A stretch of 64,000 nt of DNA from Candidatus Methylomirabilota bacterium (GTDB taxonomy: Bacteria; Methylomirabilota; Methylomirabilia; Methylomirabilales; Methylomirabilaceae), in the NCBI GenBank assembly GCA_003104975.1, contig PQAM01000008.1, positions 62,001 to 126,000 on the forward strand, given 5' to 3'. The notes under the pieces were generated by a model. The model made no database searches. It saw only the letters and a program-made list of their open reading frames with translations, and was not told where the DNA came from. The translations under genes were made by a program, and so were the position numbers. Below, piece by piece: positions 14,200 to 47,887 of the stretch. Position 1 is the stretch's first letter; every line of letters begins with the position of its first letter.

Positions 14200-14364
14200 T
14201 GGCGTTCCACCCTCCTGCCGCGGTCATGGCGAAACCCTGCATGGCTGTGCGTACCGGTGCCGTCACGATCGCTGTGACGGGTCGGGTGACACCATACCAG
14301 AGTTGGCGTGAAAGTCAACGCGCTTCCGCTGCGCCCTGCGATGGTCTTATGGTATACTTTTTGT

Positions 14365-18185: not shown

Positions 18186-18298
18186 GACGGGCTCAGTGGA
18201 CGCGTCGATACACCCACACCGTCATCACGCCCAGCACGGCCAGCGGGCTTAGGACGGTCAGCGGGGCATTGAGATGCCAGATGGCCCCGAGATGGGCC
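18186..18298 (+). repeat. 113-bp perfect direct repeat, copy 2
   Basis: Identical to 15324-15436. Here it is the natural 3' end of lptG (minus strand) plus seven bases beyond its stop codon. Confidence 0.97.
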
Positions 18299-19260
18299 AC
18301 AAAATGGCTGCCCAGATGATAGGTCGCGCCGATCAGCGATCCGTGCAGAATCCGCTTGCCGGCTGTCGCCTTCCGAAGGGGACCGAGGACAAAGGGGATC
18401 GCTACCAGCACCATCATCAGGGTCGACAGGGGCATTGTAAGCTGCTGCCAGAGCCGGATCTCCAGACGCGCCACGTCCTGACCGGTCTTTTTCAGGAAGG
18501 TGATATACTGACTGAGGGTCGAACGCGAGAGTACATCGGTAGGGAGGACCAGTATGTCCACCTGCGCCGGCGTGAGCGATCCGGCCCAGGGAAGCGTGGC
18601 CAACTGTTTCGATACGACCCCCTCCTCGCCCATCGTTCGTTGCACCACGTCCCTGAGTACCCACCGGTCCGAATCCTCTGGGTCGGCCTGCCCCGCCCAC
18701 GTCATCAGGCGTAACCGGTCGCGCTCGTCGAATTCATAGATCTCGACATCGGAAAGGATACGGCCGGGGAGCACCTTATGCACCCGGATGAATTGTCGCC
18801 CGTCGCGCGACCAGAAACCCTGCCTGGTATGGAGGGCGTCCGGCTTCGTAATCGCCCGAATACGGCGCATGTAGGCGAGTTGATCCGTGGACGGCGCCAC
18901 CCATTCCTGGATCCCCACTACCACAGCCATGAGGAGAATGCCGGTCGCGGTGACCGATACACCGATGCGCGTCGGCGAGGTGCCCAACGCCTGCATAGCG
19001 ATCAGTTCGTGGCTGCTTGCCAGCTCGCCCAGGCCGATGATGCTCCCCAACACGGCGGTCGCCGGCGCCAGCTCGATCATCCGGCTCGGTATCGTCAGGA
19101 CGACATTCAGAAACGCCTCGCCCAAGGTGTAGGTACCGCGACCTACCGAGTCCAGCTCGTTGACGAACGCTATGAGGCTGAAGATCGATAAGAGGACGGC
19201 CATCACCAACGCATACCCCCTGATGACCCTGAACCAGATATGGCGATCGATCGTACTCAT
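18193..19260 (-). CDS. lptG: LPS export permease LptG
   Basis: A 355-residue inner-membrane protein of the YjgP/YjgQ family with two N-terminal helices, a periplasmic beta-jellyroll and three to four C-terminal helices. It works with LptF and the LptB ATPase to extract lipopolysaccharide from the inner membrane. The start ATG at 19260 overlaps the lptF stop (ATGA), and MSTIDRHIWFRVIRGY is the usual LptG-type N-terminus. A longer frame to 19365 only overlaps lptF. Confidence 0.88.
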   Translation of the reverse strand: MSTIDRHIWFRVIRGYALVMAVLLSIFSLIAFVNELDSVGRGTYTLGEAFLNVVLTIPSRMIELAPATAVLGSIIGLGELASSHELIAMQALGTSPTRIGVSVTATGILLMAVVVGIQEWVAPSTDQLAYMRRIRAITKPDALHTRQGFWSRDGRQFIRVHKVLPGRILSDVEIYEFDERDRLRLMTWAGQADPEDSDRWVLRDVVQRTMGEEGVVSKQLATLPWAGSLTPAQVDILVLPTDVLSRSTLSQYITFLKKTGQDVARLEIRLWQQLTMPLSTLMMVLVAIPFVLGPLRKATAGKRILHGSLIGATYHLGSHFVAHLGAIWHLNAPLTVLSPLAVLGVMTVWVYRRVH

Positions 19261-20321
19261 GGATTCCGCATCCGTCCCCACAACAGGACTGCCACCACGA
19301 CCCCAAGGAGAAGATGGACCCACCAGACGCCCGGAATGGGGCCCACCACCCCCTTTTCTACCCATGTCTTTCCCATCATATTCAAGTTATAAAAGGTAGC
19401 GTAGCTCACAACCGATACGAACAACTTAGCATACTTACCCTGACGGGCCCTGGCATGGCTGAGGGGGAAGCCCAACAATCCCATCAGCAGCGCGGCCACC
19501 GGGGTCGAAAGCCGCCACTGAAACTCCGCAATGTCCTTAACCGAAGTTGAACCGGCCAACTGCCAGGTCGGGGCGGCCTTTCTCCGGTACTCCTCCGAGA
19601 GGGTCTGCGCCTTCTCCCACTCGAGGACTAACTGATCGGAGGTGGCCTGCCTGACCGCAGCCCGAGTCCGAGAGATCTCGTAGCTCACCGCCTCAGAACA
19701 GACCAATACGCGAGCGGCGCCCGGCTCCACCCGTTCAGGGTAATGGGCCTCTTCAGCCCAGACGAGCCGAATCAGATCGTCCGTGCGGGATTGGATGAAG
19801 ACCTTCTGCATGCGACCGCTGCTCTGGCCGCGCTGCTGAAAAAACAAGACCGTGCCGGAGGAGTTTTCGTAGAAGTGACCCGGTTGCATATCGTTCAGAT
19901 CGACATCTGCAGCCGCCTCGCGCTCCAGACGATAGCGGTTGTCGTTGGCCCATGGCCGCACATAGATGGACAGCAGGGCCACGATCGCCGCGATGACGAG
20001 CGATCCCACAAACACGATCCTTATGATCCGCGACGGACTGACACCGGAGCCAAAGAGCGCGGTCATCTCGGAATCGGTGTACAGACGTCCCAGCGTGACG
20101 ACAACCGACAGGTGCAATGCGACCGGCAGCAGGATCTCCAGCGCGACGGCAGCCCTGACCAGGACCAGCGGCAGAACGCTCTGGAAGGGCATGAGGCCGT
20201 CGGCGACCCGATTCATATACCGGACGGCGGTGAAGTTGGCAAACAGCAATAACAGCCCGCCACAGAAAATGATAAGAGGCTTGGCGATCTCGCGGGTCAG
20301 ATACCGATCGAGTATCAACAT
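19257..20321 (-). CDS. lptF: LPS export permease LptF
   Basis: A 354-residue partner of LptG. The N-terminus MLILDRYLTREIAKP, the SEMTALFGSGVSP loop and the C-terminal FPLSHARARQGKYAK stretch are characteristic of LptF. First gene of the lptF-lptG pair. Its presence means the organism makes lipopolysaccharide or a related glycolipid. It is divergent from the nucleotidyltransferase gene at 20468. Confidence 0.88.
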   Translation of the reverse strand: MLILDRYLTREIAKPLIIFCGGLLLLFANFTAVRYMNRVADGLMPFQSVLPLVLVRAAVALEILLPVALHLSVVVTLGRLYTDSEMTALFGSGVSPSRIIRIVFVGSLVIAAIVALLSIYVRPWANDNRYRLEREAAADVDLNDMQPGHFYENSSGTVLFFQQRGQSSGRMQKVFIQSRTDDLIRLVWAEEAHYPERVEPGAARVLVCSEAVSYEISRTRAAVRQATSDQLVLEWEKAQTLSEEYRRKAAPTWQLAGSTSVKDIAEFQWRLSTPVAALLMGLLGFPLSHARARQGKYAKLFVSVVSYATFYNLNMMGKTWVEKGVVGPIPGVWWVHLLLGVVVAVLLWGRMRNP

Positions 20322-20467: not shown

Positions 20468-21187
20468 ATGAGGGCCATCATATTGAGCGCTGGGCAGGGA
20501 CGACGCCTGCTCCCGCTGACAGTAGAGGTTCCGAAATGCCTGCTCCAGATCGGGGGCCACTCTCTGATTGAGCGGCAGATCGCCCACCTGATGAAGTGCG
20601 GCATCGATCAGGTGACGGTGGTGGTCGGTTTCGGCGCCGACAAGGTAGAGCAGGTCATATCCGGCCATTTCAGATCGGATCAGGTGACGACCCTGTACAA
20701 TCCCTTTTTTGCCGTCAGCGACAATCTGGCCAGTTGCTGGCTGGCTCGTCACCTGATGACGGAGGACTTTGTCCTCCTGAACGGGGACACGCTGTTCGAA
20801 CCGGCCATTTTTCAATCGCTCCTGGAGACCCCGCCCATGCCGGTCACGCTTGTTGTCGACCGCAAACCGGCGTACGATGCCGACGATATGAAGGTCATGG
20901 TGGAAGGACGCAAATTGCTCAGGGTCGGAAAGACCCTGAGGCCGGAACAGTCACATGGAGAATCGATCGGCATGACACTGTTTCGCGGAGATGGACCGGG
21001 TCTCTTCGCCGATGCGATTAATCGCGCGCTCCGACACCCTGATGCTTTGAGGCGCTGGTATCTCTCGGTCATCGATGAAATGGCGCAAGCGGGCCTGGTC
21101 TGGACCTGTCCCATCGAGGGTCTCAAGTGGGCTGAGATAGACTGTCTTGCCGACCTGGAAAATGCGCAAAGACATGTTGGCTTGTAA
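20468..21187 (+). CDS. Nucleotidyltransferase (sugar/alcohol-phosphate cytidylyltransferase type)
   Basis: A 239-residue single-domain Rossmann-like NTP transferase. ILSAGQGRRLLPLT is the nucleotide-binding loop, VEVPKCLL supplies the lysine, and LLNGDTLF supplies the metal aspartate. The NPFFAVSDNLASCWLARHLM segment resembles the N-terminal domain of CTP:inositol-1-phosphate cytidylyltransferases and related head-group activating enzymes. An AGGAGGA site precedes ATG 20468. Next to the ceramide genes it is a good candidate for making a CDP-alcohol head group. The alcohol is unknown. Confidence 0.75.
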   Translation: MRAIILSAGQGRRLLPLTVEVPKCLLQIGGHSLIERQIAHLMKCGIDQVTVVVGFGADKVEQVISGHFRSDQVTTLYNPFFAVSDNLASCWLARHLMTEDFVLLNGDTLFEPAIFQSLLETPPMPVTLVVDRKPAYDADDMKVMVEGRKLLRVGKTLRPEQSHGESIGMTLFRGDGPGLFADAINRALRHPDALRRWYLSVIDEMAQAGLVWTCPIEGLKWAEIDCLADLENAQRHVGL

Positions 21188-21214: not shown

Positions 21215-22015
21215 TTATGATTTTTTTGCCCCGGCGATTGCCTGTGCCAGCTCCCAATCGCTGACCGTATCGACGTCCAGCGCCGCCTCAGGGAATGGGA
21301 GCATAATGACGTCGATCGAGAGGTTCAGGCGCTGCGAGAGTCGAGCGAGCGCCTGACGAAGCGACAACCGGCCGCAGAGAAACCGCACGACTGTCACCCA
21401 GCCCAGCATCGAGATGAGTCGGACCGGCCTCTTGCGCAGCCCCTCCACGTGACTCCAGAACTGTATCAGCGCGCGTCCTCGCGCGGTTGAAAATGCGTAC
21501 AGGTTGCATCCGCAGACCCCGCCGTCTCGGAATCTGAGCACGGTGCGCCGCATGGTCGGATAGGCGTGTGCCACCAGATCGTAGGCGGCCAGCCCGACGA
21601 CAACATCCGCCCGACTCGCCCGCGCTGCCGCGCAAAAATAATCGATGACCTGGGCATGAAGCAGGGCGTGGTCCGCCGTCACCAGCAGAATCGGAGCATC
21701 CTCGGGCAACGACCGTATCACGGTGTACGCGCTGACGCTGGGCGTCGCGTGGGCCTCGTGCCATCCGATCGCACCGGACCCGACCAGGCGGCGAAGCTCA
21801 TCATTCGCCTCTACGGTGCGCCACTCAGGTCCGCACAGAATGCGCCGGTCGATCGCCTGCGCGTCGGCCAGCGCACCCAGCACGCGAAGAACCATGGGAA
21901 TCCCGTTGACGGGAACCAGCGCCTTGCACGAGACCTCCGCCATACGTGCGACCGGGTCGTCGGGCGCACGATCGCCGGCAAGCACAATCGCCGTGAACGG
22001 CTGCCCGATACTCAC
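21215..22015 (-). CDS. MobA-like NTP transferase domain protein
   Basis: A 266-residue protein with FTAIVLAGDRAPDDPVA and CKALVPVNGIPMVLRVLGAL, the nucleotide loop and lysine motif of MobA/CMP-sugar transferase-type enzymes, and VTADHALL as the metal motif. GTG start overlaps the stop of the upstream GNAT gene by four bases (GTGA), so the two are co-translated. Probably activates a small phosphorylated molecule for the same lipid pathway. It converges with the first nucleotidyltransferase gene. Confidence 0.72.
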   Translation of the reverse strand: MSIGQPFTAIVLAGDRAPDDPVARMAEVSCKALVPVNGIPMVLRVLGALADAQAIDRRILCGPEWRTVEANDELRRLVGSGAIGWHEAHATPSVSAYTVIRSLPEDAPILLVTADHALLHAQVIDYFCAAARASRADVVVGLAAYDLVAHAYPTMRRTVLRFRDGGVCGCNLYAFSTARGRALIQFWSHVEGLRKRPVRLISMLGWVTVVRFLCGRLSLRQALARLSQRLNLSIDVIMLPFPEAALDVDTVSDWELAQAIAGAKKS

Positions 22016-23214
22016 CGCAATGCCTTTTCATAGATCCGGTAGCGCTTATAGGGTGCGCCCCCGATCACGGCGAGCATATTTCGCATCGGCATATTGTCCT
22101 CCAGGATCCAGGAGAGTTCGACCTCTCGGATGCCGCGCCTGATGCCGTAGCCGCGTACGGCATCAACGAGCATGAAGGCCAGCGCGGTCCCCAGCGCGCT
22201 TCTTTGAAAACATTTGCGCACACCCATCAGCGCGACACGGGCTGTTGTCGGACGCTGCACCTTCAGTCGCCACAAGAGTTTCAGCCAGCCGAACGGCACC
22301 AACCGTCCGTCCAGATCGCGGATCGCCTCATTCAGATTCGGTAGCGCAACGATCATCCCGGCCGGGACCCCATCGACATCCGCGATCTGCACACACTCGT
22401 CCTCAACCAACAGGCGCAAGCTGTGCCCCAGATGTCGAAACTCCTCTTTTGTGAAGGGAATGAAACCCCAATTGTCCGACCAGGCATCCTCGAAGATCTC
22501 TTTGAGAATCCGCAACTCCTCGTTCATCGACGATCTGCGTAACGGACGGATCCGAACACAGTCGGCGGCCTTCCTGACGGCGGCCCTCATGAGCGCAGGT
22601 GGAACGAAATCGGTGGCGATACGATAGGCCAACAGATCCTTCGAGCCATGGTATCCCTCTGCAATAATTCGGTCGGCATAGTAGGGGCGGGCATGGCCCA
22701 TCATGATCATTGGAGGCGTATCGTACCCCTCCACAAGCAGGCCGCACTCCTGATTGATCGAGAGATTGAACGGACCCCGGACACGCGACATCCCCTGGTC
22801 ACGCAACCAGGTTTCCGCCGTGCCCAACAATGCGTGAAAGGTCTCCGCCTCATCCTCGGCTTCCAATAACCCGAAAAATCCGGTGGCATCCCGATACCGC
22901 TCCTCATATAATTCGTCAATCTGGGCGCTGATTCGCCCGACCGACCTGGCCCCCCGGAAGGCGAGCCAGAAACAGCAGCGTGCGTGCGCGAAATATGGAT
23001 TACGCCTGGAAAAGTGCTCCCGTCGCTCCATCAGTAAGGGAGGGACCCAGACCGGATCGTCGGCATAGAACGACGACGGGAGCTGAATGAACCGGCGCAG
23101 GTCGCGCGATCCGTGTACCGGTACAATGCGTACGGCTTCGGACGTTGTATGCACAGCAGGCGGTATGTCCCCGGGCAGCGTGGTGGAGTTCCGACCGGAC
23201 ACTATGTCACCCAT
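22012..23214 (-). CDS. GNAT-fold acyltransferase, candidate bacterial ceramide synthase
   Basis: A 400-residue protein with two acetyltransferase-like halves. FYADDPVWVPPLL, GPFNLSINQECGLLVEGYD and PPMIMMGHARPYY are hallmarks of a widespread family annotated as GNAT or 'dATP pyrophosphohydrolase'. As I recall, the Caulobacter ceramide synthase bCerS, which N-acylates the long-chain base product, has this kind of annotation. The neighbourhood here (serine palmitoyltransferase, CerR-like reductase, acyl-AMP ligase, ACP) matches that pathway. Family placement is sound; the ceramide-synthase role is inferred from context. Confidence 0.68.
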   Translation of the reverse strand: MGDIVSGRNSTTLPGDIPPAVHTTSEAVRIVPVHGSRDLRRFIQLPSSFYADDPVWVPPLLMERREHFSRRNPYFAHARCCFWLAFRGARSVGRISAQIDELYEERYRDATGFFGLLEAEDEAETFHALLGTAETWLRDQGMSRVRGPFNLSINQECGLLVEGYDTPPMIMMGHARPYYADRIIAEGYHGSKDLLAYRIATDFVPPALMRAAVRKAADCVRIRPLRRSSMNEELRILKEIFEDAWSDNWGFIPFTKEEFRHLGHSLRLLVEDECVQIADVDGVPAGMIVALPNLNEAIRDLDGRLVPFGWLKLLWRLKVQRPTTARVALMGVRKCFQRSALGTALAFMLVDAVRGYGIRRGIREVELSWILEDNMPMRNMLAVIGGAPYKRYRIYEKALR

Positions 23215-23702
23215 GCGGGGGTCGATCTATTCCCGTTTGGCAAATCGGCGCCTCCCCTTCGTTTTTTTGTTGCACAAAACCCCTTGGGTCTTGTATATAA
23301 TACCGTCCGCCTTTTCGGTGTGATAACGGTCGATATCACGGCTGACGCTGAATTTTACTATTATGCACGTTTACTGACGGCGTTCAACATCATCTTATGC
23401 GCGCTCCGGTAGACGGCACGACCGGCCGTGCTGCTGTACGCCACATCGGCGGGTAGGGGTATCGCAACGACGGTCTGTAACACATCTCGATGACCGGCTC
23501 TATCCGGGAGACTTACAGCGGCAGCGATCTGCCGCTTGTCGCGTTACGTGCGCCGCTCGGGTTGTGGTCTTACCGCTCGCAGTGGTTACGGTGACATGAA
23601 GTCGTTCTGCTCTTTTTTGAGCGGTGCGTAAAGAGCCTGACCGGCACTGAGGGGTTAGGGTTACCAGGTAACGTCGTTTTGCGTACAGGGGGTGTGGGGG
23701 GG
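23215..23702. promoter_or_regulatory. Divergent regulatory region between GNAT and acyl-AMP ligase genes
   Basis: This gap of nearly 490 bases holds no gene. It has TATAAT at 23296-23301, with TTGCAC at 23270-23275 (20-base spacer), reading toward the ligase. A GTGATA-N8-TATCAC dyad at 23320-23339 lies just downstream and overlaps the GATATCACGG string at 23332. A repressor site is plausible. Confidence 0.4.
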
Positions 23703-25529
23703 ATGACAACAGGACCGACGCCGACTGAGAATACCCTGCCGCTTCGGATTACAGGTTTCTCGACGCTGGCCGAGGCGCTGGATTACGCAGCCGGAGGAGA
23801 GACCGGATTTAACTTTTACGGAGACCGCGGGGAATTGTATGCGGTACTGCCGTATGCAGACCTTCGAGAGCAGGCGCGGTCGTTGGCGCGGCGCCTCATG
23901 AGCCTGCATCTCGAGCGCGGCGCTCGGGTTGCCATCGTGGCGGATACCGGTCCGGATTTTCCGCGTTTCTTTTTTGCATGTCAGTACGCCGGTCTGGTGC
24001 CTGTGCCGTTGTCGGCATCGCTGTTGATCAGCGGTCGTAAACGATATGTCACCCAACTCCGCGCACTGCTGGCCAATTGCCGTCCGTCCGTCGCCATGGC
24101 GCCGCCGGAATTCTTTCCTTTCCTGAGCGAGGCCGCCGACGGGCTGGCGTTGACGCACGTCGGTACACCGGAAACCTTTGATTGCCTGCCGGAAGCACCG
24201 GACGAGTTGGAGCCTTTGCGTCCTTCCGAGATGGCCTATCTTCAATACACCTCCGGCAGTACACGGTTTCCTCGCGGGGTGATGATTACCCAAACGGCGG
24301 TGCTTGCGAATCTGGAAGGGATTCTGCGGCAGGGCCTGCAGATCCGCCCCGGCGACCGTGCCGTGTCCTGGCTCCCTTTTTATCACGATATGGGGCTGGT
24401 GGGTTTCGTATTGGCGCCGATGGTCTGCCAGGTCTCCGTCGATTATTTGAAAACGCAGTCGTTTGCGATGCGACCACGATTATGGCTGTCATTGATGACA
24501 CAGACGAAGGCCACCATCTCATTCAGTCCGTCCTTCGGGTACGAGATGTGCGTGAGGCGGCTGCGGCGGGATGAGGGCGGCAGGTTCGACCTGAGCGCGT
24601 GGCGGGCCGCCGGAGTAGGCGCTGAAACTATTCGGCCAGGTGTCCTGCGGGAATTTGCGGAGGCGCTGGCGCCGAGCGGCTTCAGACCGAGCGCATTTGT
24701 GGCCTGTTACGGCATGGCAGAGGCCTCCCTCGCCGTCACTTTTGCGCCGATCGAGAAGGGCATCACCGTCGATCAGGTAGATCAGACCCTATTAGCCAGA
24801 TTCGGCGTCGCATCTCCCCTGAATGAGTGTGAGGCAGCGTCCGGCGCCGACAAGACGAACAGCAGTCGATTTGTCAATTGCGGCATCCCACTCTCCGGCG
24901 TCGAGGTCGAGGTGCGGGACGAACAGGGCCAGGTCCTGCCGGATCGTCACGCCGGCGTCATTTTCATTCGGGGCGCCAACGTCACGTCCGGTTACTTCGG
25001 CGATCCCGAAAAGACCCGAAAGGTCTTATCCTCGGACGGGTGGCTCGACACAGGCGATCTGGGGTATCTCGTGGACGGAAGCCTGGTCATTATCGGTCGC
25101 AAGAAGGATGTCATCATCGTCCACGGTCGAAACATCTGGCCCCAGGATCTGGAGCACCTCGCCGAGGAGTTGCCGGAGGTCAGACCGGGAGACGCGTGCG
25201 CATTCTCCGTAGAGGCGCCCGATCGGACTGAGTTGGCCGTGATGGTCCTTCACTGTCGCGAGACGGATACCGCAAAACAGGCCGACATCATCCGCCGACT
25301 ACAAGGATTGATCCGCGAATATTTCGCGCTCGACTGTTTCGTCGAATTGGTTCCGCCCCGCACCCTCCCTCGTACATCCTCCGGCAAGCTATCCCGCTCA
25401 AAGACCCGGGAAGAGTTCTTGGGTCGGAACGACCTGGCCGGTCTCTTTCACGGTCGAAACGGATTGAGTCTCCTCCGACCGACGCAGCCTGACCAGCAAG
25501 CGGACTCATGCGCGGCGTCGTCGCGCTGA
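23703..25529 (+). CDS. Fatty acyl-AMP ligase (FAAL-type adenylating enzyme)
   Basis: An ANL-superfamily enzyme of 608 residues. The P-loop YTSGSTRFPRG starts near residue 182. SWLPFYHDMGLVG is characteristic of fatty acyl-AMP ligases rather than CoA ligases, and CYGMAEASLA and DTGDLGYLVDG follow. It would activate a fatty acid as acyl-AMP and pass it to the ACP encoded downstream, supplying acyl chains for the sphingoid base or the ceramide amide. ATG 23703 follows a G-rich ribosome-binding site; TTG 23679 is an alternative. The end overlaps the next gene by 22 bases. Confidence 0.85.
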   Translation: MTTGPTPTENTLPLRITGFSTLAEALDYAAGGETGFNFYGDRGELYAVLPYADLREQARSLARRLMSLHLERGARVAIVADTGPDFPRFFFACQYAGLVPVPLSASLLISGRKRYVTQLRALLANCRPSVAMAPPEFFPFLSEAADGLALTHVGTPETFDCLPEAPDELEPLRPSEMAYLQYTSGSTRFPRGVMITQTAVLANLEGILRQGLQIRPGDRAVSWLPFYHDMGLVGFVLAPMVCQVSVDYLKTQSFAMRPRLWLSLMTQTKATISFSPSFGYEMCVRRLRRDEGGRFDLSAWRAAGVGAETIRPGVLREFAEALAPSGFRPSAFVACYGMAEASLAVTFAPIEKGITVDQVDQTLLARFGVASPLNECEAASGADKTNSSRFVNCGIPLSGVEVEVRDEQGQVLPDRHAGVIFIRGANVTSGYFGDPEKTRKVLSSDGWLDTGDLGYLVDGSLVIIGRKKDVIIVHGRNIWPQDLEHLAEELPEVRPGDACAFSVEAPDRTELAVMVLHCRETDTAKQADIIRRLQGLIREYFALDCFVELVPPRTLPRTSSGKLSRSKTREEFLGRNDLAGLFHGRNGLSLLRPTQPDQQADSCAASSR

Positions 25530-26446
25530 CGGGAGCCACTGGATTCATCGGAAGTGCCCTGGCTCGAAGACTGATAACAGAAGGATGGCGGGTACGCGCG
25601 CTCCGTCGTTCGCCAACCCCGTCGAGACATCTGGCTGCCTTCTCGCTGGAATGGGTGCAGGGAACGCTTGAGGATCGCGATTGTCTTGAGGGCCTGGTCG
25701 GCGATTCGGACGTTGTCATCCATTGTGCAGGCGTCCTCCGAGGAATGACCGAGGCCGACTTTTACCCAGTCAACGTCGAGGCGGTCTCTCGACTAGCCGC
25801 GATCGCCGCCAGCCGCCACCCCATACCCCGGTTTCTGCTCATCTCATCTCTGGCCGCCCGCGAACCCGCGTTGTCTCCCTATGCAGCCAGTAAACGGATG
25901 GGAGAGATCGCCCTCGCGACAGCGGGAGATCGGCTCCAATGGACCGCACTTCGTCCCCCGGCGGTCTACGGTCCGGGAGACCGCGAGCTACTACCGCTGC
26001 TGCGCCTGATGCTGCACGGGATCGCCCCCATACCGGGCCGCATAGATGCCAGATTCTCGCTGATCTATGTCGACGATCTGACGGAGGCCGCAATGAGATG
26101 GCTTGACGGCAAGGTCTGTGAGAGGCGCGCATTCGAGTTGGATGATGGGCACCCGCAGGGTTACTCATGGCATGAGGTGATCGAAACCTTCGAACGGCTC
26201 AGAGGAAAATGGGTCATTCGTTTCGAGATTCCGGAATCGCTATTGAACCTGATAGCCGGACTTAACAAGACGGCGGCTTCCGTGTTAAGATACGCTCCAA
26301 TGTTGACCCCGGCCAAGGTGCGGGAACTCAGGCACCCGAACTGGGTCTGCGACAACGCCCCGTTCCGCCGGGTGATCGACTGGACGCCACGGGTACATCT
26401 GGAAGAGGGGCTGCGGTTGACGCTCGGCCTTCAGGGTACCGAATGA
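25508..26446 (+). CDS. NAD(P)-dependent epimerase/reductase, CerR-like
   Basis: A 312-residue extended short-chain dehydrogenase. TGATGFIGSALARRL is the NAD(P) loop and YAASKRMGE carries the catalytic YxxxK. It begins inside the end of the ligase gene, so the two are co-translated. In bacterial ceramide clusters a protein of this type (CerR) reduces the oxidised ceramide at C3, and the position beside serine palmitoyltransferase and ACP fits. The enzyme family is certain; the substrate is inferred. Confidence 0.78.
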   Translation: MRGVVALTGATGFIGSALARRLITEGWRVRALRRSPTPSRHLAAFSLEWVQGTLEDRDCLEGLVGDSDVVIHCAGVLRGMTEADFYPVNVEAVSRLAAIAASRHPIPRFLLISSLAAREPALSPYAASKRMGEIALATAGDRLQWTALRPPAVYGPGDRELLPLLRLMLHGIAPIPGRIDARFSLIYVDDLTEAAMRWLDGKVCERRAFELDDGHPQGYSWHEVIETFERLRGKWVIRFEIPESLLNLIAGLNKTAASVLRYAPMLTPAKVRELRHPNWVCDNAPFRRVIDWTPRVHLEEGLRLTLGLQGTE

Positions 26447-26575: not shown

Positions 26576-26827
26576 ATGGCCCACTACGACACGATACTGC
26601 CACAACTCTATGAGATCTTGAAACCGTTTGCGCAGGATGGGCAGACCCTTTCCGATGAGACAGACCTCGTCGCCGATCTGGATCTGGATTCGATGAAGGT
26701 CATGGAGGTTCTGCTCGAGGTGGAGGAACGATTCGACATCTCTATCCCGTTAAATGTCATCCCGGATGTGCGGACTATCCGGGATTTTGCCCGACAGATT
26801 GAACAACTGACGGAGCATCATCCGTGA
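26576..26827 (+). CDS. Acyl carrier protein
   Basis: An 83-residue acidic four-helix protein with the phosphopantetheine site DLDLDSMKV (Ser39). It is a second, pathway-specific ACP and not the AcpP of the fatty-acid operon. Its GTGA overlap with the following serine palmitoyltransferase gene matches known ACP-serine palmitoyltransferase pairs, in which the condensing enzyme takes its acyl group from ACP. Confidence 0.9.
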   Translation: MAHYDTILPQLYEILKPFAQDGQTLSDETDLVADLDLDSMKVMEVLLEVEERFDISIPLNVIPDVRTIRDFARQIEQLTEHHP

Positions 26828-28014
26828 CCCCCCTTCTGGACAAGTTCCGACAACTCGCCGACGCCCGTGAGGCGTTGACACAACTCAGCCAGGACCCCTT
26901 TCGGGTGACGATCGAACGGATTCTGTCGCCGACCGAAGCCGTCGTCAACGGCCGCCCCACGATCTTGGTAGGAACGAATAACTACCTCGGCTTGACCTTC
27001 GATCCCGAGTGCATAGCAGCGGCGGTCCAGGCAGTCCAGGAGCAGGGGACAGGTACGACCGGATCCAGAATGGCGAACGGCAGCTTCAACGGGCATCTCG
27101 CGTTAGAGCAGGAGTTGGCGGAATTTTTCGAACGTCGGTGGTGCAACGTCTTTTCAACCGGCTATCTGGCGAACTTGGGCGTCATTGCGGCGCTCACCGG
27201 CCCTGGTGATGTGATCCTGATCGACGCCGACTGCCATGCAAGCATCTATGACGGATGCCGGATGAGCGGAGCAGAGGTCATTCGATTCCGTCACAACGAT
27301 GTGGCCGATCTTGATAAGCGCCTCATGCGTTTAAAGGAACGCAGCACCAACACGCTGATCATTGTAGAGGGTTTGTACAGTATGCTCGGCGACCGAGCGA
27401 CGCTCGTGGAGATTGCAGCCGCCAAACGGGAGTACGGCGCCTACCTGCTGGTCGACGAGGCTCATTCGCTCGGAGTATTAGGAAGGCGCGGCCGAGGGTT
27501 GTCTGAGGAGGCCGGTGTCGAAGAAAGCGTCGATTTTATCGTCGGAACATTTAGTAAAAGCCTGGGTGCGACCGGCGGATTCTGCGTCTCGAATCACCCA
27601 GAGGTCGATCTGATCCGGTATGTCAGCCGCCCGTATATCTTCACCGCATCACCTTGCCCCTCGGTTGTCGCCTCCACACGAGCCGCACTGCATAAGCTTC
27701 GAACCGAGCCGAGGCTCCGCGTACGGCTCTGGGCCAATGCGCGGCGGTTATACGATGAGTTAAAGGGATTAGGGCTCAGGCTGGGTCCCGAACCCAGTCC
27801 GATCATTGCAGCCAGGTTCGGTCAGAAGGAAGAGACGATCGCCTTTTGGAACGGGCTCCTCGATCAGGGCGTCTATGTCAACATGATCTTGCCGCCGGCA
27901 GCCCCGGACGGCGGGAGCCTGCTGCGATGCAGCGTCAGCGCGGCACATACGCCGGACCAGATCGATCACATCTGCCGGGCCTTTGCGTCCGTAAAGACCG
28001 GGCTGACCCCGTAG
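26824..28014 (+). CDS. spt: Serine palmitoyltransferase (alpha-oxoamine synthase)
   Basis: A 396-residue PLP enzyme of the alpha-oxoamine synthase family. It condenses serine with an acyl thioester to 3-ketosphinganine in the cytoplasm. Motifs: NNYLG, GTGTTGSRMANGSFNGHLALE, DEAHSLGVLG and the PLP lysine K245 in GTFSKSLGATGG. Related enzymes (KBL, BioF, HemA) share the fold. The adjacent dedicated ACP, acyl-AMP ligase, CerR-like and GNAT genes favour serine palmitoyltransferase over BioF, and there are no biotin genes nearby. Confidence 0.82.
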   Translation: MTPLLDKFRQLADAREALTQLSQDPFRVTIERILSPTEAVVNGRPTILVGTNNYLGLTFDPECIAAAVQAVQEQGTGTTGSRMANGSFNGHLALEQELAEFFERRWCNVFSTGYLANLGVIAALTGPGDVILIDADCHASIYDGCRMSGAEVIRFRHNDVADLDKRLMRLKERSTNTLIIVEGLYSMLGDRATLVEIAAAKREYGAYLLVDEAHSLGVLGRRGRGLSEEAGVEESVDFIVGTFSKSLGATGGFCVSNHPEVDLIRYVSRPYIFTASPCPSVVASTRAALHKLRTEPRLRVRLWANARRLYDELKGLGLRLGPEPSPIIAARFGQKEETIAFWNGLLDQGVYVNMILPPAAPDGGSLLRCSVSAAHTPDQIDHICRAFASVKTGLTP

Positions 28015-30670: not shown

Positions 30671-30686
30671 GCAAGAGGAGATACAG

Positions 30687-32159: not shown

Positions 32160-32167
32160 TCGAATCG

Positions 32168-34866: not shown

Positions 34867-34878
34867 TGGGGCTGGCAG

Positions 34879-36237: not shown

Positions 36238-36290
36238 ATCCTGCCCTCTGGAGCGGCAGCCTTTGAAGGCAGCCGAGATAAGGTGAGTAG

Positions 36291-38047: not shown

Positions 38048-38202
38048 TCGGCCATACCGTCGTCCCATTCTGACCATCCCGCTCCGTTCCCTCACCAAAA
38101 ATCGTAGTGATTTCAGAGGATTGACCTAGAGAGGCCGCTGGCATCATATTAGTAGTAGCAATAGAATCGACAGGGCGCGCTTGCGGCGTTCTTTATGCGT
38201 AC

Positions 38203-39570: not shown

Positions 39571-39579
39571 GGTGTCGAC

Positions 39580-41029: not shown

Positions 41030-42787
41030 ATGCGGTTCTTGATTACCATCATTCGGAAATATCCCCGACGGAGCACGATCACGCTGATCTGCCTCCTGTT
41101 TGCCAGCATTGCGGAGGGGGTCGGACTCCTCATGCTGCTCCCCGTGCTCAGCATGGCGACCGACAACCAGCCCGCGGCCGGTTCCCATCTGTTCGGAGCG
41201 CAGCAGATGCTGACGCAGGCGCTCTCAGCCGTAGGACTGAAACCAACCGTCGGCACACTGCTGATCCTCATCGTCCTCTGTATATCGGTCAAGGCAGCAT
41301 TTGCTCTCTTGGCCAAGACCCAAGTGGGCTACACTGTGACGCACGTGGCCACCGATCTACGGCTCACCCTCTTGCGAACCCTGTTGGCTGCCCGGTGGGA
41401 GTATTACGTACGTCAACCGATCGGGAGCCTCGCCAACGCCGTAGGAACCGAGGCGATGCGGGCGTCTATGGCGTATTTCGAGGGTGCCAAGGCCATTACC
41501 TTACTCATTGAAGCCGTTGTATATGCAGGTGTGGCCCTCGTCGTGGCCCGTCAGGCGACCTTTGCATTTCTTATTCCCGGAGTACTGATCCTCTACGGGC
41601 TCAGCTACCTGGTCCGGAAGGCGCATCGGGCGGGAACACGTCAGACCAAGCTCTTGAAATCACTGGTCGCCGGCCTTACCGATAGCCTCCAATCGATCAA
41701 GCCGCTGAAGGCAATGGCTCGGGAAGAGCTGATCGGCCCGTCACTTCAGTCCAGCACCAAGCGGCTGAATCGGGCGTTTCAGCGAGAGGTGCTGAGCACC
41801 GAGCTTCTCAGCTCTTCCCAAGACCTGACCCTGGCGATCGTCGTCGTGGTCGGATTATACGTCACCCTGAGTCAGTGGAAGATGCCCCTCAATGTCGTGA
41901 TGGTGATGGTGATCCTGCTCGCGCGCATGCTGACCTTCCTGGCCAGAATGCAGCGGCAGTATCAGAAGGCGCGGACCCTGGAAAGCGCCTTCTGGTCGCT
42001 GCAAGCCGCGATCGACGGTGCAAGCCGCGATCGCGAAACAGAACCGGGCGGCCTCCCCCCCCACCTGGAACGGTCGCTGCGCCTGGAGAAGGTCACCTTC
42101 AGTTACGGAAACAAATACGTACTCCGGAATGCGTCGCTGACCGTTCCAGTGGGGTCATTTACCGTGATTATCGGTCCGTCGGGGGCCGGAAAGACGACGG
42201 TTGCCGATCTGCTCACAGGTCTGTTGCGTCCGCAGGAGGGTCGCACCTGGATCGACGATCTTTCCTTGGACCAGGTTGACCTGAGGCAGTGGCGGCGAAT
42301 GATCGGGTACGTCCCGCAAGAGCCGTTTCTCCTGCACGATACCGTGTTGCGGAATGTGACGCTCGGCGATCCCGAATTGAGCGAGGCCGATGCCGAGGCG
42401 GCACTGCGCGCCGCCGGCGCCTGGGACTTTGTTGCAGCGCAGTCCTCAGGGATCTACGCGTCGGTCGGGGAGCGCGGCACCGCACTATCAGGAGGCCAGC
42501 GACAACGCATCGCGATCGCCCGCGCATTGGCTCATCGGCCTAAGCTCTTAATCCTCGATGAGGTAACCAGCGCACTCGATCAGGAGAATACCGCGATCAT
42601 TTGCCGAACGTTGCGAGACCTTCGAGGTCGGCTCACTATTGTCGCCATCTCACATGAGGCGACCGTAGTGGGAAGCGGCGATAGGGTCTATCGGATACAC
42701 GACGGCGAGGCGTCATTGGTGACGAACGGTCATGAGCCGGTTTTTGCCCTGAGCGAACCGGCAGAACGATCAAAAGCTAATAGATGA
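41030..42787 (+). CDS. ABC exporter, fused permease-ATPase (MsbA-like)
   Basis: A 585-residue half-transporter. The membrane domain has about six helices (residues 15-310). The nucleotide-binding domain has GPSGAGKTT, IGYVPQEPFLLHDTVLRNV, LSGGQRQR and LLILDEVTSALD. The class includes flippases for lipid A, lipid-linked sugars and glycolipids. Position between the glycan and phospholipid-type genes suggests it flips the finished glycolipid across the inner membrane. Confidence 0.88.
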   Translation: MRFLITIIRKYPRRSTITLICLLFASIAEGVGLLMLLPVLSMATDNQPAAGSHLFGAQQMLTQALSAVGLKPTVGTLLILIVLCISVKAAFALLAKTQVGYTVTHVATDLRLTLLRTLLAARWEYYVRQPIGSLANAVGTEAMRASMAYFEGAKAITLLIEAVVYAGVALVVARQATFAFLIPGVLILYGLSYLVRKAHRAGTRQTKLLKSLVAGLTDSLQSIKPLKAMAREELIGPSLQSSTKRLNRAFQREVLSTELLSSSQDLTLAIVVVVGLYVTLSQWKMPLNVVMVMVILLARMLTFLARMQRQYQKARTLESAFWSLQAAIDGASRDRETEPGGLPPHLERSLRLEKVTFSYGNKYVLRNASLTVPVGSFTVIIGPSGAGKTTVADLLTGLLRPQEGRTWIDDLSLDQVDLRQWRRMIGYVPQEPFLLHDTVLRNVTLGDPELSEADAEAALRAAGAWDFVAAQSSGIYASVGERGTALSGGQRQRIAIARALAHRPKLLILDEVTSALDQENTAIICRTLRDLRGRLTIVAISHEATVVGSGDRVYRIHDGEASLVTNGHEPVFALSEPAERSKANR

Positions 42788-42966: not shown

Positions 42967-44178
42967 ATGGCGATTTACGCTCACATACTCGGAGAGACTC
43001 CAGTCACACTCTGGGGGCTTTCATCTCGCGAGCGCTACCGGCGGGTATTGAAACCGGTCGGCGTAAGCGTGATGATGGACGATCTGTCTCTCCTTAAACC
43101 GGATGACTCTGTACTGATCGTCCGCGGAGATTATCTCGTGGATAGCCGCATACTCCAGGCCATGACTAAGTCATCCAATATCATGCTTGAGGTGCCGGTT
43201 GGGACCTCACGCGCGATCATCGCCGCTCACGTACCGGCCAACCTGGCAATACAGACACGGGCGGTCCTGGCTCTGGAGCGGAGCGTCACCACGCTGCCCT
43301 CCTCCGTTCGGATTGAGAAGTTGGGGGATCAGTTGTCCTCGTTTGATCCGCGGTTACGTAAATCGGAGCCCCCTTTTGCGAAACCGATCAAGCCCGACAC
43401 GAAACGGACGTTGGAAGAACGTTTGTTTGCGAGTTCCTACAAGAGCGTAACCGATCTGGTGACCAAATGGCTGTGGCCGTCTCCCGCCAAAAGCGCCGTG
43501 CGTCTATGCGTCGCCGCCGGGTTAAGGCCCAACCATGTCACAACGATCAGTTTGATATTGGTCTTGGCGGCCGCCGTCCTGTTCATGAAAGGTCTCTGCG
43601 GGTGGGGACTTGCCGCCGGATGGTTGATGACCTTTCTTGATACGGTTGACGGAAAGCTTGCCCGTGTGACCGTCACCAGCACCAGATTCGGGCACTTACT
43701 CGATCACCTTCTGGACCTGATCCACCCGCCCTTCTGGTACCTGCTATGGGGTCTTGGATTGGACGCTTTCACACCGGGCATTCCGTGGCTGAGTCTGCGA
43801 CTGGCGATCTGGGCGATCTTTATTGGTTACATTATCGGGCGTCTGGTTGAGGGCGTCTTCAGGAAGTGCCTTGGCGGGTTTGTAATCTTTTGCTGGCGTC
43901 CCATTGACTCGTATTTCAGACTGGTGACAGCCCGGCGCAACCCGAATATGATCCTTCTTACCGCAAGCCTGGTAGCGGGCAGGCCGGATCTTGGCTTGGT
44001 GGCTGTGACCGTATGGACCATATTGTCTTCGCTTGTGCTGCTGATGCGCCTCGGCGTCGCTGTGTATGCGCGCACACACGGACCGTTGCAATCCTGGTTG
44101 GCCGAGGCGACCGAACGCGGCAGCGGTCATTCCCTTGCCGTACGGCTCTTCACCAATCAGGTTGCCACTCCGCGATAA
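42967..44178 (+). CDS. CDP-alcohol phosphatidyltransferase with extra N-terminal domain
   Basis: About 403 residues from ATG 42967; an upstream ATG at 42874 lies before the predicted transcription start. The catalytic motif DGKLAR-x8-G-x3-D-x3-D is complete from residue 229 (TVDGKLARV through HLLDHLLD). The membrane part has about six helices. The N-terminal 170 residues are a soluble domain resembling a reduced nucleotidyltransferase, as in fused inositol-phosphate cytidylyltransferase/DIPP synthases. It joins a CDP-activated partner to an alcohol. With a lipid kinase and a Tam41-like CDP-lipid synthase downstream, the donor is probably a CDP-lipid. Confidence 0.82.
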   Translation: MAIYAHILGETPVTLWGLSSRERYRRVLKPVGVSVMMDDLSLLKPDDSVLIVRGDYLVDSRILQAMTKSSNIMLEVPVGTSRAIIAAHVPANLAIQTRAVLALERSVTTLPSSVRIEKLGDQLSSFDPRLRKSEPPFAKPIKPDTKRTLEERLFASSYKSVTDLVTKWLWPSPAKSAVRLCVAAGLRPNHVTTISLILVLAAAVLFMKGLCGWGLAAGWLMTFLDTVDGKLARVTVTSTRFGHLLDHLLDLIHPPFWYLLWGLGLDAFTPGIPWLSLRLAIWAIFIGYIIGRLVEGVFRKCLGGFVIFCWRPIDSYFRLVTARRNPNMILLTASLVAGRPDLGLVAVTVWTILSSLVLLMRLGVAVYARTHGPLQSWLAEATERGSGHSLAVRLFTNQVATPR

Positions 44179-44211
44179 CAAGCGGAGAATGAGGGGGGTA
44201 ACGTCTACGCG

Positions 44212-45258
44212 ATGTTGTATACCACAACACCGACCAGTGTGATGAGTGAAGCCGACCGTGCGTCTTGCGCCGGCCAGTTGCTGCCGGTTCGGCGTACGCG
44301 GCGGGTCGGTATCCTGATCAATCCAAAGAGCGGAAGGAATCGCGACGGACTGCACGGCCTCCTTCGCGTTCTGGAGCCGTACGAGACGGCGGTCTGCCAA
44401 TACGTTGTCGGTCCGGCGAGCGTGGCCGCCGCTCTTGCGGCCATGGCTGCGCAGAACGTGGATGTCGTGGGTATTTGTGGAGGGGACGGAACCGTCCAGG
44501 CCGCATTAACCGCCCTGTTGCACAACGGGCCCTTTACGGTACTGCCGTCCCTGGCGCTCATTGCCGGTGGGACCACCAATATGACCGCCGGCGATGTCGG
44601 CATGGAGGGTAAGCCGATACAGGCACTGGAGCGCCTGCTCGCCTGGGCGGAGGGGAGGGGACCGACCGCACAACTTGTCCGTCGGGCGGTCCTGCGGGTA
44701 GACGGCGGGACGGATAGCACGCCGCGGTTCGGGATGTTCTTCAGCGCGGCCGGCATTGCGCAAGTCACCCGAGTTCGACATGTGACCCGTCGGCGGGCCA
44801 AATCGAGACTGATGCGCGGCGCCGTGGGAACTGCCGTCACTGTAGGCCGGTATCTGTTGGGCCTTGCACTTCGACGCCGCGTCGTCGAGCCGACTCCAAT
44901 CACTGTTCGGTTGGATGACAAACCATACGAAACGCGCGACTACCTTGCGCTGTTCATTACCACCTTGGCGCGCCTGAATCCCGGCATACGCCCGTACTGG
45001 GGACGGGAAGACGGCCCGCTTAAATATACGGCGGTGGCCGATCAGCCGCAGGGTCTTCTGCGCGCGACGCCGGCATTACTGTCGGGGAGACCCAGTCGGC
45101 GCCTGATACCCGAGTCCGGGTACACAAGCCGGAACATCCATGAAGCCGTCCTGCAATTAAAGACGGCCTGTACGCTTGACGGACAAATTCTTATAAACCG
45201 GCCACCGCATTCGTTAACAGTGAGTTACGGAGGGGAGGTTGACTTTGTACGTGTCTGA
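44212..45258 (+). CDS. Diacylglycerol/sphingoid-type lipid kinase
   Basis: A 348-residue protein of the DAGK catalytic superfamily (DgkB, YegS, sphingosine and ceramide kinases). INPKSGRN is followed by the ATP-binding GGDGT at residues 90-94 and ALIAGGTTNMTAGDVG. It phosphorylates a lipid alcohol at the inner face of the membrane. It lies between the CDP-alcohol transferase and a desaturase and overlaps the latter. Given the ceramide genes 17 kb upstream, either diacylglycerol or ceramide/sphinganine is possible. Confidence 0.83.
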   Translation: MLYTTTPTSVMSEADRASCAGQLLPVRRTRRVGILINPKSGRNRDGLHGLLRVLEPYETAVCQYVVGPASVAAALAAMAAQNVDVVGICGGDGTVQAALTALLHNGPFTVLPSLALIAGGTTNMTAGDVGMEGKPIQALERLLAWAEGRGPTAQLVRRAVLRVDGGTDSTPRFGMFFSAAGIAQVTRVRHVTRRRAKSRLMRGAVGTAVTVGRYLLGLALRRRVVEPTPITVRLDDKPYETRDYLALFITTLARLNPGIRPYWGREDGPLKYTAVADQPQGLLRATPALLSGRPSRRLIPESGYTSRNIHEAVLQLKTACTLDGQILINRPPHSLTVSYGGEVDFVRV

Positions 45259-46396
45259 AAAAAGGGTGTCCTCGACGACCGTGGGGGGATCGAGATCGTC
45301 GGCCGCCGCTCTGTACGAGACCCCGGATTTTTCACGCCGGGAGATTAAGAAGCTGGTTCAGGATCTGTTCACGCCAAAGCCGCTGCTCTACTGGGCCGAC
45401 TTTCTCATTACGCTGTCTATCGGCTACGGCTTCGCCGCGATCTATCTGACGGCGCCGGCGTTCTCATGGATGCAGATCGGCGCTGGTCTGTTGTCCGGAC
45501 TGGCGTTGTTCAGGGTCGGCATCTTCATCCATGAACTGGTCCACAGAGAAGAGCCCTCCATGGTAGGATTTCATATCGTCTGGAATCTAATGTTCGGCAT
45601 ACCGTTTCTCCTTCATTCACTCCTGTACCGCAGTCACCTTGACCATCATCATCCCCGTAAGTTCGGCACCCCGGCCGAGGGAGAGTATCTGCCGCTGGGT
45701 TCGTCACCGATTCGGGAAACGCTGCTCTATCTTGCGCAGATTCCGGCTGTACCGCTCCTGGCCGCCTTCCGCTTCCTGATCCTGGTACCGCTGTCGTTTC
45801 TGTATCCGCCTTCTCGTCGATGGGTCCTGGAATCCTGGTCCTCATATACGATCAACCCGTACTATCGGCGCGTCATTCCTTCAACGGAACCCCTGGGGTT
45901 GTGGGCAATACTGGACCTGGCCTGCCTGCTGTGGTTGATGATCGTCATTGGGCTGATACTCACCGGAGTTGTCGCCTGGACAACGGTCGGATTGATTTAT
46001 GGCCTGTCGATCTGTACGATTGCGCTGAACTGGGTTCGGACCCTGGCGGCGCACCGGTTCATGAACACGGGCGGCAATATGACGTACGTGGAGCAGATTG
46101 AGGATTCTCTGACCATCGAGGGTCGTTCCTTGTTGACGCTGCTCCTGTTTCCTATCGGTTTACGGTATCATGCCCTGCATCACCTGTTTCCGTTGATGCC
46201 CTATCACTCCATGGGTGAGGCCCACCGCCGATTGATGACAGCCCTTCCGGACGATTCCCCGTACAAGAAGGGGATCTTCTCCGGTTTGTGCGCGGCGCTC
46301 CGCGAACTGCTGCGAAGCGCAAAAATGGCAGGCAAGACCGGACACAATCCGGTGGAAGAGTGGCGACACCCGGAAACCGCGACCTATGCGCGATAA
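45245..46396 (+). CDS. Membrane fatty-acid/sphingolipid desaturase or hydroxylase
   Basis: A di-iron membrane desaturase with all three histidine boxes: H96ELVH100, HLDHHH at 131-136 and HALHH at 309-313. About four membrane helices. The TTG at 45245 lies six bases after AGGGGAGG; TTG 45239 and GTG 45251 are alternatives. It overlaps the lipid kinase gene. It would introduce a double bond or hydroxyl into an acyl or long-chain-base chain of the lipid made here. Confidence 0.82.
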   Translation: MYVSEKRVSSTTVGGSRSSAAALYETPDFSRREIKKLVQDLFTPKPLLYWADFLITLSIGYGFAAIYLTAPAFSWMQIGAGLLSGLALFRVGIFIHELVHREEPSMVGFHIVWNLMFGIPFLLHSLLYRSHLDHHHPRKFGTPAEGEYLPLGSSPIRETLLYLAQIPAVPLLAAFRFLILVPLSFLYPPSRRWVLESWSSYTINPYYRRVIPSTEPLGLWAILDLACLLWLMIVIGLILTGVVAWTTVGLIYGLSICTIALNWVRTLAAHRFMNTGGNMTYVEQIEDSLTIEGRSLLTLLLFPIGLRYHALHHLFPLMPYHSMGEAHRRLMTALPDDSPYKKGIFSGLCAALRELLRSAKMAGKTGHNPVEEWRHPETATYAR

Positions 46397-47351
46397 ACCG
46401 CAAGAAGCGTGGAGGCAACTGACCTCCATCATCGAGCAAGAGAGCAGGCGACCCGTCACGCCTGGTACGCAGGCCTTGGCCGACGCGCTGATCAAGCGTT
46501 ATGAGGGGGTCGCGTCTGCGGTACTCGCCTACGGTTCCTGCTTCCGCAACCGGACGGATGAGGGGCTTGTCGATCTGTGTGTCGTGGTCGACGACTACCG
46601 AGCTCTTCCGGGGACCGTCTGGCAACAGTGGCTGCATAGGGTCCTGCCGCCCACGGTGTTTTACCTGGAGACCTCGCACGGCGGCCGCTCACTCCGAGCG
46701 AAGTACATCGTCATCTCACGTGAAGACCTCGAGCGCGGTGTCTCGCCACGCTGTTTCCATTCCTATCTCTGGGCACGGTTTGCCCAACCCACCGGGGTCG
46801 TATATGCTCGACATGAACACGATGCACGGCGGATCTATCCGGCCTTAGCCCGGGCCGTCGTCACATTCGTCGACCGCGTCCTGCCGATGCTGCCGTCGTC
46901 GTTCGATGCCCGCGAACTGTGGCAGCGGGGACTGCGCCTGACCTATGGCACCGAACTGCGGCCTGAACGGACGGACGCCGTCGCGCGACTGGTTGACGCC
47001 TCACGCGAGTACTACGAGCAGGTCACCCGCATCGCCATGGGCTGCACGCCGTTTGATGTCCGTCCGGTCGAAGAGGACCGGACGACCAGATATCATGCGG
47101 CCATACCCTTCGCCGACCGTTTCATCGCCGGCCTCGTCTGGCGAATTCGGACAATACACGGAAAATTCCTGAACGTGTTACGCCTGTTGAAAGGGTTGCT
47201 CACCTTTAAGAGCGGCAGGGACTACATCCTGTGGAAGATCGAACGGCATTCCGGCATACGGATCGAGATGCCGCCGTATTACGAGCGCTACCCATGGTTC
47301 GCGACGGCGCTAATTCTTGGCAGGCTCTACCGGCGCGGGGCGTTTCGGTAG
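46386..47351 (+). CDS. Tam41-like CTP:phosphatidate (CDP-lipid) cytidylyltransferase
   Basis: A 321-residue nucleotidyltransferase-fold protein whose block order matches mitochondrial Tam41 CDP-diacylglycerol synthase: YGS at 49-51, then DLCVVVDDY, then VFYLETSHGGRSLRAKYIVIS, then a tract ending FAQPTGVVY. The helical segment AVVTFVDRVLPMLPSSFDARELWQRGLRLTYG parallels the Tam41 segment after it. There is no CdsA-like membrane domain. It overlaps the desaturase gene by 11 bases. With the lipid kinase and CDP-alcohol transferase it would complete a route from lipid alcohol to phospholipid. The Tam41 assignment is from memory of the family. Confidence 0.7.
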   Translation: MRDKPQEAWRQLTSIIEQESRRPVTPGTQALADALIKRYEGVASAVLAYGSCFRNRTDEGLVDLCVVVDDYRALPGTVWQQWLHRVLPPTVFYLETSHGGRSLRAKYIVISREDLERGVSPRCFHSYLWARFAQPTGVVYARHEHDARRIYPALARAVVTFVDRVLPMLPSSFDARELWQRGLRLTYGTELRPERTDAVARLVDASREYYEQVTRIAMGCTPFDVRPVEEDRTTRYHAAIPFADRFIAGLVWRIRTIHGKFLNVLRLLKGLLTFKSGRDYILWKIERHSGIRIEMPPYYERYPWFATALILGRLYRRGAFR

Positions 47352-47374
47352 CAGCCCGTCAGCAAAGAGACGAC

Positions 47375-47887
47375 GTGAAGTCCTTCTTCGTTGGTTTCTG
47401 GTTCGTTTGCCTGCTGGTACTGTCGTGGAGCGGGGGCGCGCAGGCCCAGATTCAAGCGACCGAAGGTCCATGCGACCGCGGCGCGTCGACCGCCATCGAT
47501 GTTCGGGTGCATGGTGTCAGGAGCGATCGCGGGAATATCATGTTCGTCCTGTACGGCGATAACCCCGACGATTTCCTCGTGAAGGGCAAAAGGATTTTTA
47601 AACAACACTTCGCCGCAAAACGCGGAACCGTGGCATTCTGCATTGCCGTTTCGGCCGGTACCTATGCCGCCAGCGTCTACCACGATGAAAACGGGAATAA
47701 GAAACTTGACAGGAACTGGATCGGGATACCCGCCGAAGGCGCCGGCTTCTCGAACAATCCCACGCTTCTTGTAGGCCCACCCAGCCATGCGCAGGCGGCA
47801 TTTCAGGTTTCACACGGCCCCACACGCATCGACATCCAACTCAATTATTCGATCGTATCGGGACAACAAGGCTCGAACCGGCCGTAA
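47375..47887 (+). CDS. DUF2141 family exported protein
   Basis: A 170-residue protein from GTG 47375 with a signal peptide cleaved near AQA-QIQ, then a beta-sandwich domain typical of DUF2141: IMFVLYGDNPDDFL, GTYAASVYHDENGNKKLDRNW and GIPAEGAGFSNNP. It has no known enzymatic role and is periplasmic. It closes the lipid operon and may bind or chaperone the exported lipid. Confidence 0.8.
   Translation: MKSFFVGFWFVCLLVLSWSGGAQAQIQATEGPCDRGASTAIDVRVHGVRSDRGNIMFVLYGDNPDDFLVKGKRIFKQHFAAKRGTVAFCIAVSAGTYAASVYHDENGNKKLDRNWIGIPAEGAGFSNNPTLLVGPPSHAQAAFQVSHGPTRIDIQLNYSIVSGQQGSNRP

Follow-up and report, generated by a model that had tools for sequence, protein, structure and literature searches.

A probable Caulobacter-type phosphosphingolipid locus in Methylomirabilota, with CpgC placed structurally in the Tam41 family

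Introduction

What lipid is served by a gene cluster in which a Tam41-like nucleotidyltransferase lies beside a lipid kinase, a desaturase and a cytidine diphosphate (CDP)-alcohol phosphotransferase? The question is raised by four genes at positions 42967-47351 of the window, i.e., the whole 64,000-nucleotide stretch of contig PQAM01000008.1 analysed here, which belongs to a Candidatus Methylomirabilota bacterium with a genome of 3.0 Mb. A reading made from the letters alone (hereafter, the sequence-only reading) had taken these genes for a self-contained operon and had suggested a dedicated phosphosphingolipid route via CDP-ceramide. The four genes had been correctly located and read, and they are tightly packed: the kinase and desaturase reading frames share 20 nt, provided that the TTG start is correct, and 11 nt are common to the desaturase and Tam41-like reading frames. 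However, "self-contained" is too narrow a description: the cluster is the cpgA/cpgB/cpgC part of a far larger locus and probably represents the headgroup part of a phosphosphingolipid locus of the Caulobacter type.

In Caulobacter, this locus is responsible for the production of ceramide phosphoglycerate (CPG) and ceramide diphosphoglycerate (CPG2). Ceramide synthesis has been demonstrated in this bacterium; both CpgB (a ceramide kinase) and CpgD have been assayed, and the substrate of CpgD has been measured (PMC12275187). Loss of CC_1161 (cpgC) eliminates CPG and CPG2 and raises ceramide; in 2024, a CDP-ceramide step was proposed for this gene from an InterPro domain (PMC11324152). Later papers, from 2025 and 2026, call the mechanism by which CpgC leads from ceramide-1-phosphate to CPG unidentified (PMC12275187; PMC13228409).

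The pathway is largely known in kind; the analysis supports its extension to a further phylum and a sharper assignment of its open step. Two points are new: (i) the presence of the locus in Methylomirabilota, Nitrospirota and Desulfobacterota-type genomes; and (ii) the assignment, from a structural model, of CpgC to the Tam41 family, published work having so far left this protein unassigned.

CpgC as a Tam41-family protein

For the single CpgC sequence, no match was obtained in Pfam or NCBIfam, and a sequence search of the PDB yielded nothing useful. Nor did PF09139 (Tam41) match anything in the host genome, a result which only means that the PF09139 model is too narrow. Because single-protein searches gave nothing useful, the comparison had to be made with a profile of the family: 101 CpgC relatives were detected by scanning GTDB genomes, 80 loci were kept and 73 homologs were aligned. 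PF09139 was matched by 40 of the 73 homologs (best E-value, 2.4e-10), some of them exceeding its 24-bit cut-off; the window CpgC gave no match. In turn, the 73-homolog profile retrieved the Tam41 of Schizosaccharomyces pombe (6IG2; E-value, 1.1e-5).

The AlphaFold model of CpgC, built on the same alignment (predicted local distance difference test, pLDDT, 92.6; predicted template modelling score, pTM, 0.91), led to the same family. The best five Foldseek matches in the PDB were all Tam41 (6IG4, 6IG2, Firmicutes 7ECD; E-values from 3e-11 to 3e-8, probability 1.00), and the match spans the full length of the protein (285-297 aligned columns). Residues Y49, G50, D63, K106, R131 and Q134 are invariant in 73/73 homologs, and S51 is kept in 72/73. 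The second acidic nucleotidyltransferase position is mostly occupied by tyrosine in the homologs and by cysteine in the window protein; Tam41 has itself been reported to have just one of the three nucleotidyltransferase acids. Fold matches, invariant residues and the single acid together establish the structural match to Tam41. The Tam41-like identity advanced in the sequence-only reading is thereby borne out: Tam41 is the first Foldseek match, the profile finds 6IG2 and the active-site residues are kept. By its modelled fold and active-site conservation, CpgC is a member of the Tam41 family.

Does CpgC then act as an ordinary Tam41, that is, as a soluble backup of CdsA that makes CDP-diacylglycerol from phosphatidate, its position in the locus being incidental or serving a glycerophospholipid donor? 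CpgC does share with Tam41 its fold and an active site with one acid, and the Firmicutes Tam41 makes CDP-diacylglycerol. However, a genome search recovered a separate, normal cdsA (G000:C2:45091-45861), as distinct from CpgC, which is not a CdsA-type membrane transferase of PF01148 that uses cytidine triphosphate (CTP). Since this cdsA exists elsewhere in the genome, CpgC is not the housekeeping CDP-diacylglycerol synthase, and such a main role was ruled out. Besides, CpgC travels with the ceramide kinase, a CpgB homolog being found alongside at 66 of the 80 loci (here and below, neighbour counts are homologs within 10 kb, and many loci end early at contig ends), and the Caulobacter mutant phenotype (PMC11324152) also speaks against this explanation, which is considered highly improbable.

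Homologs of CpgC also occur on plasmids of Pseudomonas, Diaphorobacter, Roseomonas and Qipengyuania (NZ_CP073662.1, NZ_CP097491.1, NZ_CP065408.1 and Roseomonas plasmids), where they are annotated as hypothetical protein (identity, 29-38%).

Proposed pathway

The following steps are proposed: (i) Spt, AcpR, AasR, CerS and CerR would produce dihydroceramide; (ii) CpgB would convert it into ceramide-1-phosphate; (iii) CpgC, a soluble enzyme, would transfer cytidine monophosphate from CTP onto ceramide-1-phosphate, giving CDP-ceramide as the activated form that leads to CPG; (iv) CpgD would make CDP-glycerate; (v) CpgA would add the second phosphoglycerate; and (vi) the second LptF/LptG pair, probably together with an MsbA-like exporter, would take the lipid to the outer membrane, while the desaturase would modify its chains. 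According to published Caulobacter genetics, CpgA is required for CPG2 and dispensable for CPG, so that its donor is likely, by analogy, the CDP-glycerate from CpgD. As for the Methylomirabilis organism, we infer both the export of the lipid and the role of the desaturase.

Regarding step (iii), if CpgC performs the chemistry of Tam41 on the ceramide-1-phosphate supplied by the ceramide kinase encoded next to it, CDP-ceramide is, by analogy, the somewhat favoured product. The fold and residue evidence strengthens the published CDP-ceramide proposal for CC_1161. On balance, it seems likely that CpgC is a CTP:ceramide-1-phosphate cytidylyltransferase and CDP-ceramide a true intermediate; there would then be an activated-sphingolipid branch, parallel to that of CDP-diacylglycerol and built with a Tam41 relative, across Methylomirabilota, Nitrospirota, Desulfobacterota-type genomes and proteobacteria. 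Of the dedicated phosphosphingolipid route via CDP-ceramide suggested by the sequence-only reading, the route itself stands, backed by the full ceramide pathway in the window, a gene order kept across phyla, the Tam41 fold and the separate cdsA; its CDP-ceramide step is something that we infer.

Several observations weigh against this assignment. Template modelling scores of CpgC to Tam41 are 0.50-0.65, that is, a family-level match with shifted domains; identity between the window and Caulobacter CpgC proteins is just 28%; and Caulobacter CpgC itself has no Pfam match. In addition, no CpgC was detectable in two Methylomirabilis genomes of 99% completeness (G030, G032) whose CerS is close to that of the window, which would indicate another headgroup or an assembly gap. 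Finally, if CpgC makes CDP-ceramide, no gene is assigned for the conversion of CDP-ceramide into CPG, because Caulobacter CPG forms without cpgA.

This missing enzyme also favours a different explanation, according to which the substrate of CpgC is not ceramide-1-phosphate but some other phosphate, such as a phosphorylated CPG formed later in the pathway or a small phosphate compound, with CTP or a different nucleotide as co-substrate. The locus contains three nucleotidyltransferases (starting at 20468, 21215 and 46386), and only for CpgD has the substrate been measured (PMC12275187). Nevertheless, Tam41 proteins work on lipid phosphates and, since cpgC is required ahead of CPG in Caulobacter (PMC11324152), the lipid phosphate known to precede CPG is ceramide-1-phosphate. 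An alternative phosphate substrate is, hence, unlikely, and ceramide-1-phosphate is retained here as the preferred one.

Gene content of the locus

On a Rokubacteria contig, homologs of the cluster adjoin homologs of window genes that lie 20-30 kb upstream; read as a pathway, this linkage leads to the Caulobacter phosphosphingolipid locus CC_1152-CC_1168. In the window, the locus extends over 14308-47351 (Table 1) and also includes spt, acpR, aasR, cerR and cerS, i.e., the complete ceramide set, as well as cpgD and the genes for another nucleotidyltransferase, a phosphoesterase and an additional LptF/LptG pair. AcpR is conserved in two other genomes (G025, G022). LptG2 gave no tblastn match to the Caulobacter gene at an E-value of 1e-3, and its assignment is by family and position.

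Table 1. Features of the phosphosphingolipid locus and its near neighbours, in window coordinates.
Feature	Position	Strand	Evidence
Metallophosphoesterase, CC_1158 ortholog	14308..15390	+	PF00149; 40-42% identity to Caulobacter-region gene
LptG-type permease, second copy (LptG2, CC_1155 type)	18193..19365	-	PF03739, E 8e-63; position conserved
LptF-type permease (LptF2, CC_1156 type)	19257..20321	-	PF03739, E 7e-68; weak tblastn match to Caulobacter
CpgD, CTP:phosphoglycerate cytidylyltransferase, CC_1152	20468..21187	+	49% identity to Caulobacter CpgD
Second MobA/CofC-like nucleotidyltransferase, CC_1153	21215..22015	-	PF12804; 35% identity to Caulobacter
CerS, bacterial ceramide synthase, GNAT fold, CC_1154	22012..23214	-	45% identity to Caulobacter, full length
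AasR, acyl-ACP synthetase, CC_1165	23679..25529	+	PF00501; 45% identity to Caulobacter
CerR, ceramide reductase, CC_1164	25508..26446	+	PF01370; 34-35% identity to Caulobacter
AcpR, dedicated acyl carrier protein (ACP), CC_1163	26576..26827	+	83 aa open reading frame, DLDLDSM carrier motif, between cerR and spt
Spt, serine palmitoyltransferase, CC_1162	26824..28014	+	60% identity to Caulobacter Spt over 391 aa
MsbA-like ABC exporter, candidate flippase	41030..42787	+	PF00005/PF00664
CpgA, CDP-alcohol phosphotransferase, CC_1159 type	42967..44178	+	PF01066, E 4e-11
CpgB, DAGK-family ceramide kinase, CC_1160 type	44212..45258	+	PF00781, E 8e-17
Membrane fatty acid desaturase/hydroxylase	45239..46396	+	PF00487, E 2e-21
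CpgC, Tam41-family nucleotidyltransferase, CC_1161 type, proposed CTP:ceramide-1-phosphate cytidylyltransferase	46386..47351	+	
DUF2141 secreted protein	47375..47887	+	PF09912, E 8e-32

The desaturase had been correctly recognised as a three-His-box enzyme (HELVH, HLDHHH and HALHH). It is the sole PF00487 gene in the host genome, its homologs appear at 9/80 cpgC loci and it is a lineage-specific extra in the cluster. Orthology to CC_0202 was not adopted: Caulobacter has two PF00487 genes, among which CC_0202 is not distinguishable. The MsbA-like exporter has homologs close to cpgC at 20/80 loci (median identity, 43%) and in G025, a complete genome, it is located between spt and cpgA. The last gene of the range covered by the sequence-only reading was corrected to one for a secreted DUF2141 protein; it lies directly 3' of cpgC in all Methylomirabilis copies compared (G025, G022, G033, G034), and in Methylomirabilis only.

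Between spt, on one side, and the exporter and cpgA, on the other, lies a surface-sugar block of about 13 kb (28087-40749), which G025 lacks at this position. The block contains genes for a NeuB-like synthase, a short-chain dehydrogenase/reductase, an aldehyde dehydrogenase, a CMP-sugar synthase-like protein, a transketolase, a methyltransferase, a kinase and a glycosyltransferase. The 389 aa product of 39580-40749 looks TagF-like near its own end and has no Pfam match, with a homolog at the CC_1167 position of Caulobacter (39-40% identity). This gene was considered as a possible missing CDP-glycerate transferase and set aside: homologs are present in only 11/120 Caulobacterales genomes, with a clear match in 4 Methylomirabilis genomes, and such patchy presence means that it is not a core gene.

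The surface-sugar block could suggest that the Methylomirabilis lipid bears some other headgroup and that the enzyme families have been reused. Against this, five CpgD residues published as responsible for catalysis (R16, K26, D112) and for specificity, i.e., the preference for 2-phospho-D-glycerate (M147, K161), are conserved in 28/28 sequences, window CpgD included, and in G025 the order of CpgD with the remaining locus is unbroken. Another headgroup is thus quite improbable. Since all five residues are kept, the sequences point to a glycerate headgroup, which is likely across all phyla with the locus.

Architecture of CpgA

As the sequence-only reading had it, CpgA is a CDP-alcohol transferase with an additional N-terminal domain. 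It carries the full D-x2-D-G-x2-A-R-x8-G-x3-D-x3-D motif, invariant in 40 sequences; the membrane core is present, and the best Foldseek match is AF2299. Given this AF2299-type architecture, the modelled N-terminal domain is not a novel one but, most likely, a degenerate version of a cytidylyltransferase-like domain.

In two related genomes (G033, L014:14619-15179; G034, L016:14435-14998), cpgA has an in-frame internal deletion that joins residues 1-109 to 321-400. The truncated genes lack the catalytic core, and the cpgB, desaturase and cpgC genes alongside are intact, as would be expected if cpgB and cpgC can function without cpgA.

Conservation and distribution

The whole set is contiguous in G025 (2651872-2670685; 18.8 kb), and the order CerS-NTase (nucleotidyltransferase)-CpgD-LptF-LptG-phosphoesterase-CpgA-CpgB-CpgC recurs in Desulfobacterales, Nitrospirales, Rokubacteria, and alpha- and gammaproteobacteria. 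Besides CpgB, neighbours at the 80 loci are CpgA (48), the phosphoesterase (47), CerS (46), CC_1153 (44), LptF (40), LptG (37), AasR (35), CpgD (31), Spt (28) and CerR (25).

Within the phylum, CpgC is present in 8/95 genomes, and all eight have CerS. In the CpgC tree, the window copy and that of a Nitrospirae genome group together (100/100), and the desaturase is present in this Nitrospirae genome too; the Rokubacteria copy is placed elsewhere, beside a deltaproteobacterial metagenome-assembled genome. Patchy presence and tree topology suggest transfer between phyla.

Implications

The placement in the Tam41 family makes the CpgC step directly testable in vitro. Moreover, the locus predicts that nitrite-dependent methane oxidisers, Nitrospirota and sulfate-reducer-type lineages have anionic sphingolipids in the outer membrane; a literature search found no paper reporting such sphingolipids in Methylomirabilis.

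Comparison with known systems

The closest known system is the CC_1152-CC_1168 CPG/CPG2 locus of Caulobacter crescentus. The published cpgD primer served to locate the reference region among Caulobacterales genomes; in one retrieved genome, 5/8 published primers match exactly, and R16, K26 and D112 of the translated CpgD keep the numbering of the literature. Ten locus genes match this region with 28-60% identity (CpgA, 41%; CpgB, 29%) and in the same order. Both loci share the ceramide genes, cpgA-D, the CC_1153 and CC_1158 orthologs and the second LptF/LptG. By contrast, the window locus has (i) an additional desaturase between cpgB and cpgC; (ii) a DUF2141 gene; (iii) an MsbA-like exporter in place of the Wzx-like CC_1166; and (iv) the 13 kb surface-polysaccharide block. 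Orthologs of LptC2 (CC_1168) and of the CC_1166-type flippase were not noticed among the window open reading frames; no genome-wide search for them was made.

CpgA shares with AF2299 and IPCT-DIPPS (4O6N, 4MND) the membrane CDP-alcohol transferase core, the cytidylyltransferase-like N-terminal domain and the complete motif, but its N-terminal domain lacks a recognisable glycine-rich nucleotide loop and the substrates differ.

Finally, CpgC has the nucleotidyltransferase domain and C-terminal helical part of Tam41/TAMM41 and Firmicutes Tam41 (6IG2, 6IG4, 7ECD), together with the YGS motif, the single catalytic aspartate, the conserved lysine and the R-F-x-Q/K-P segment. Identity is 14-16% and, unlike Tam41, CpgC is linked to a ceramide kinase and ceramide synthesis instead of cardiolipin genes.

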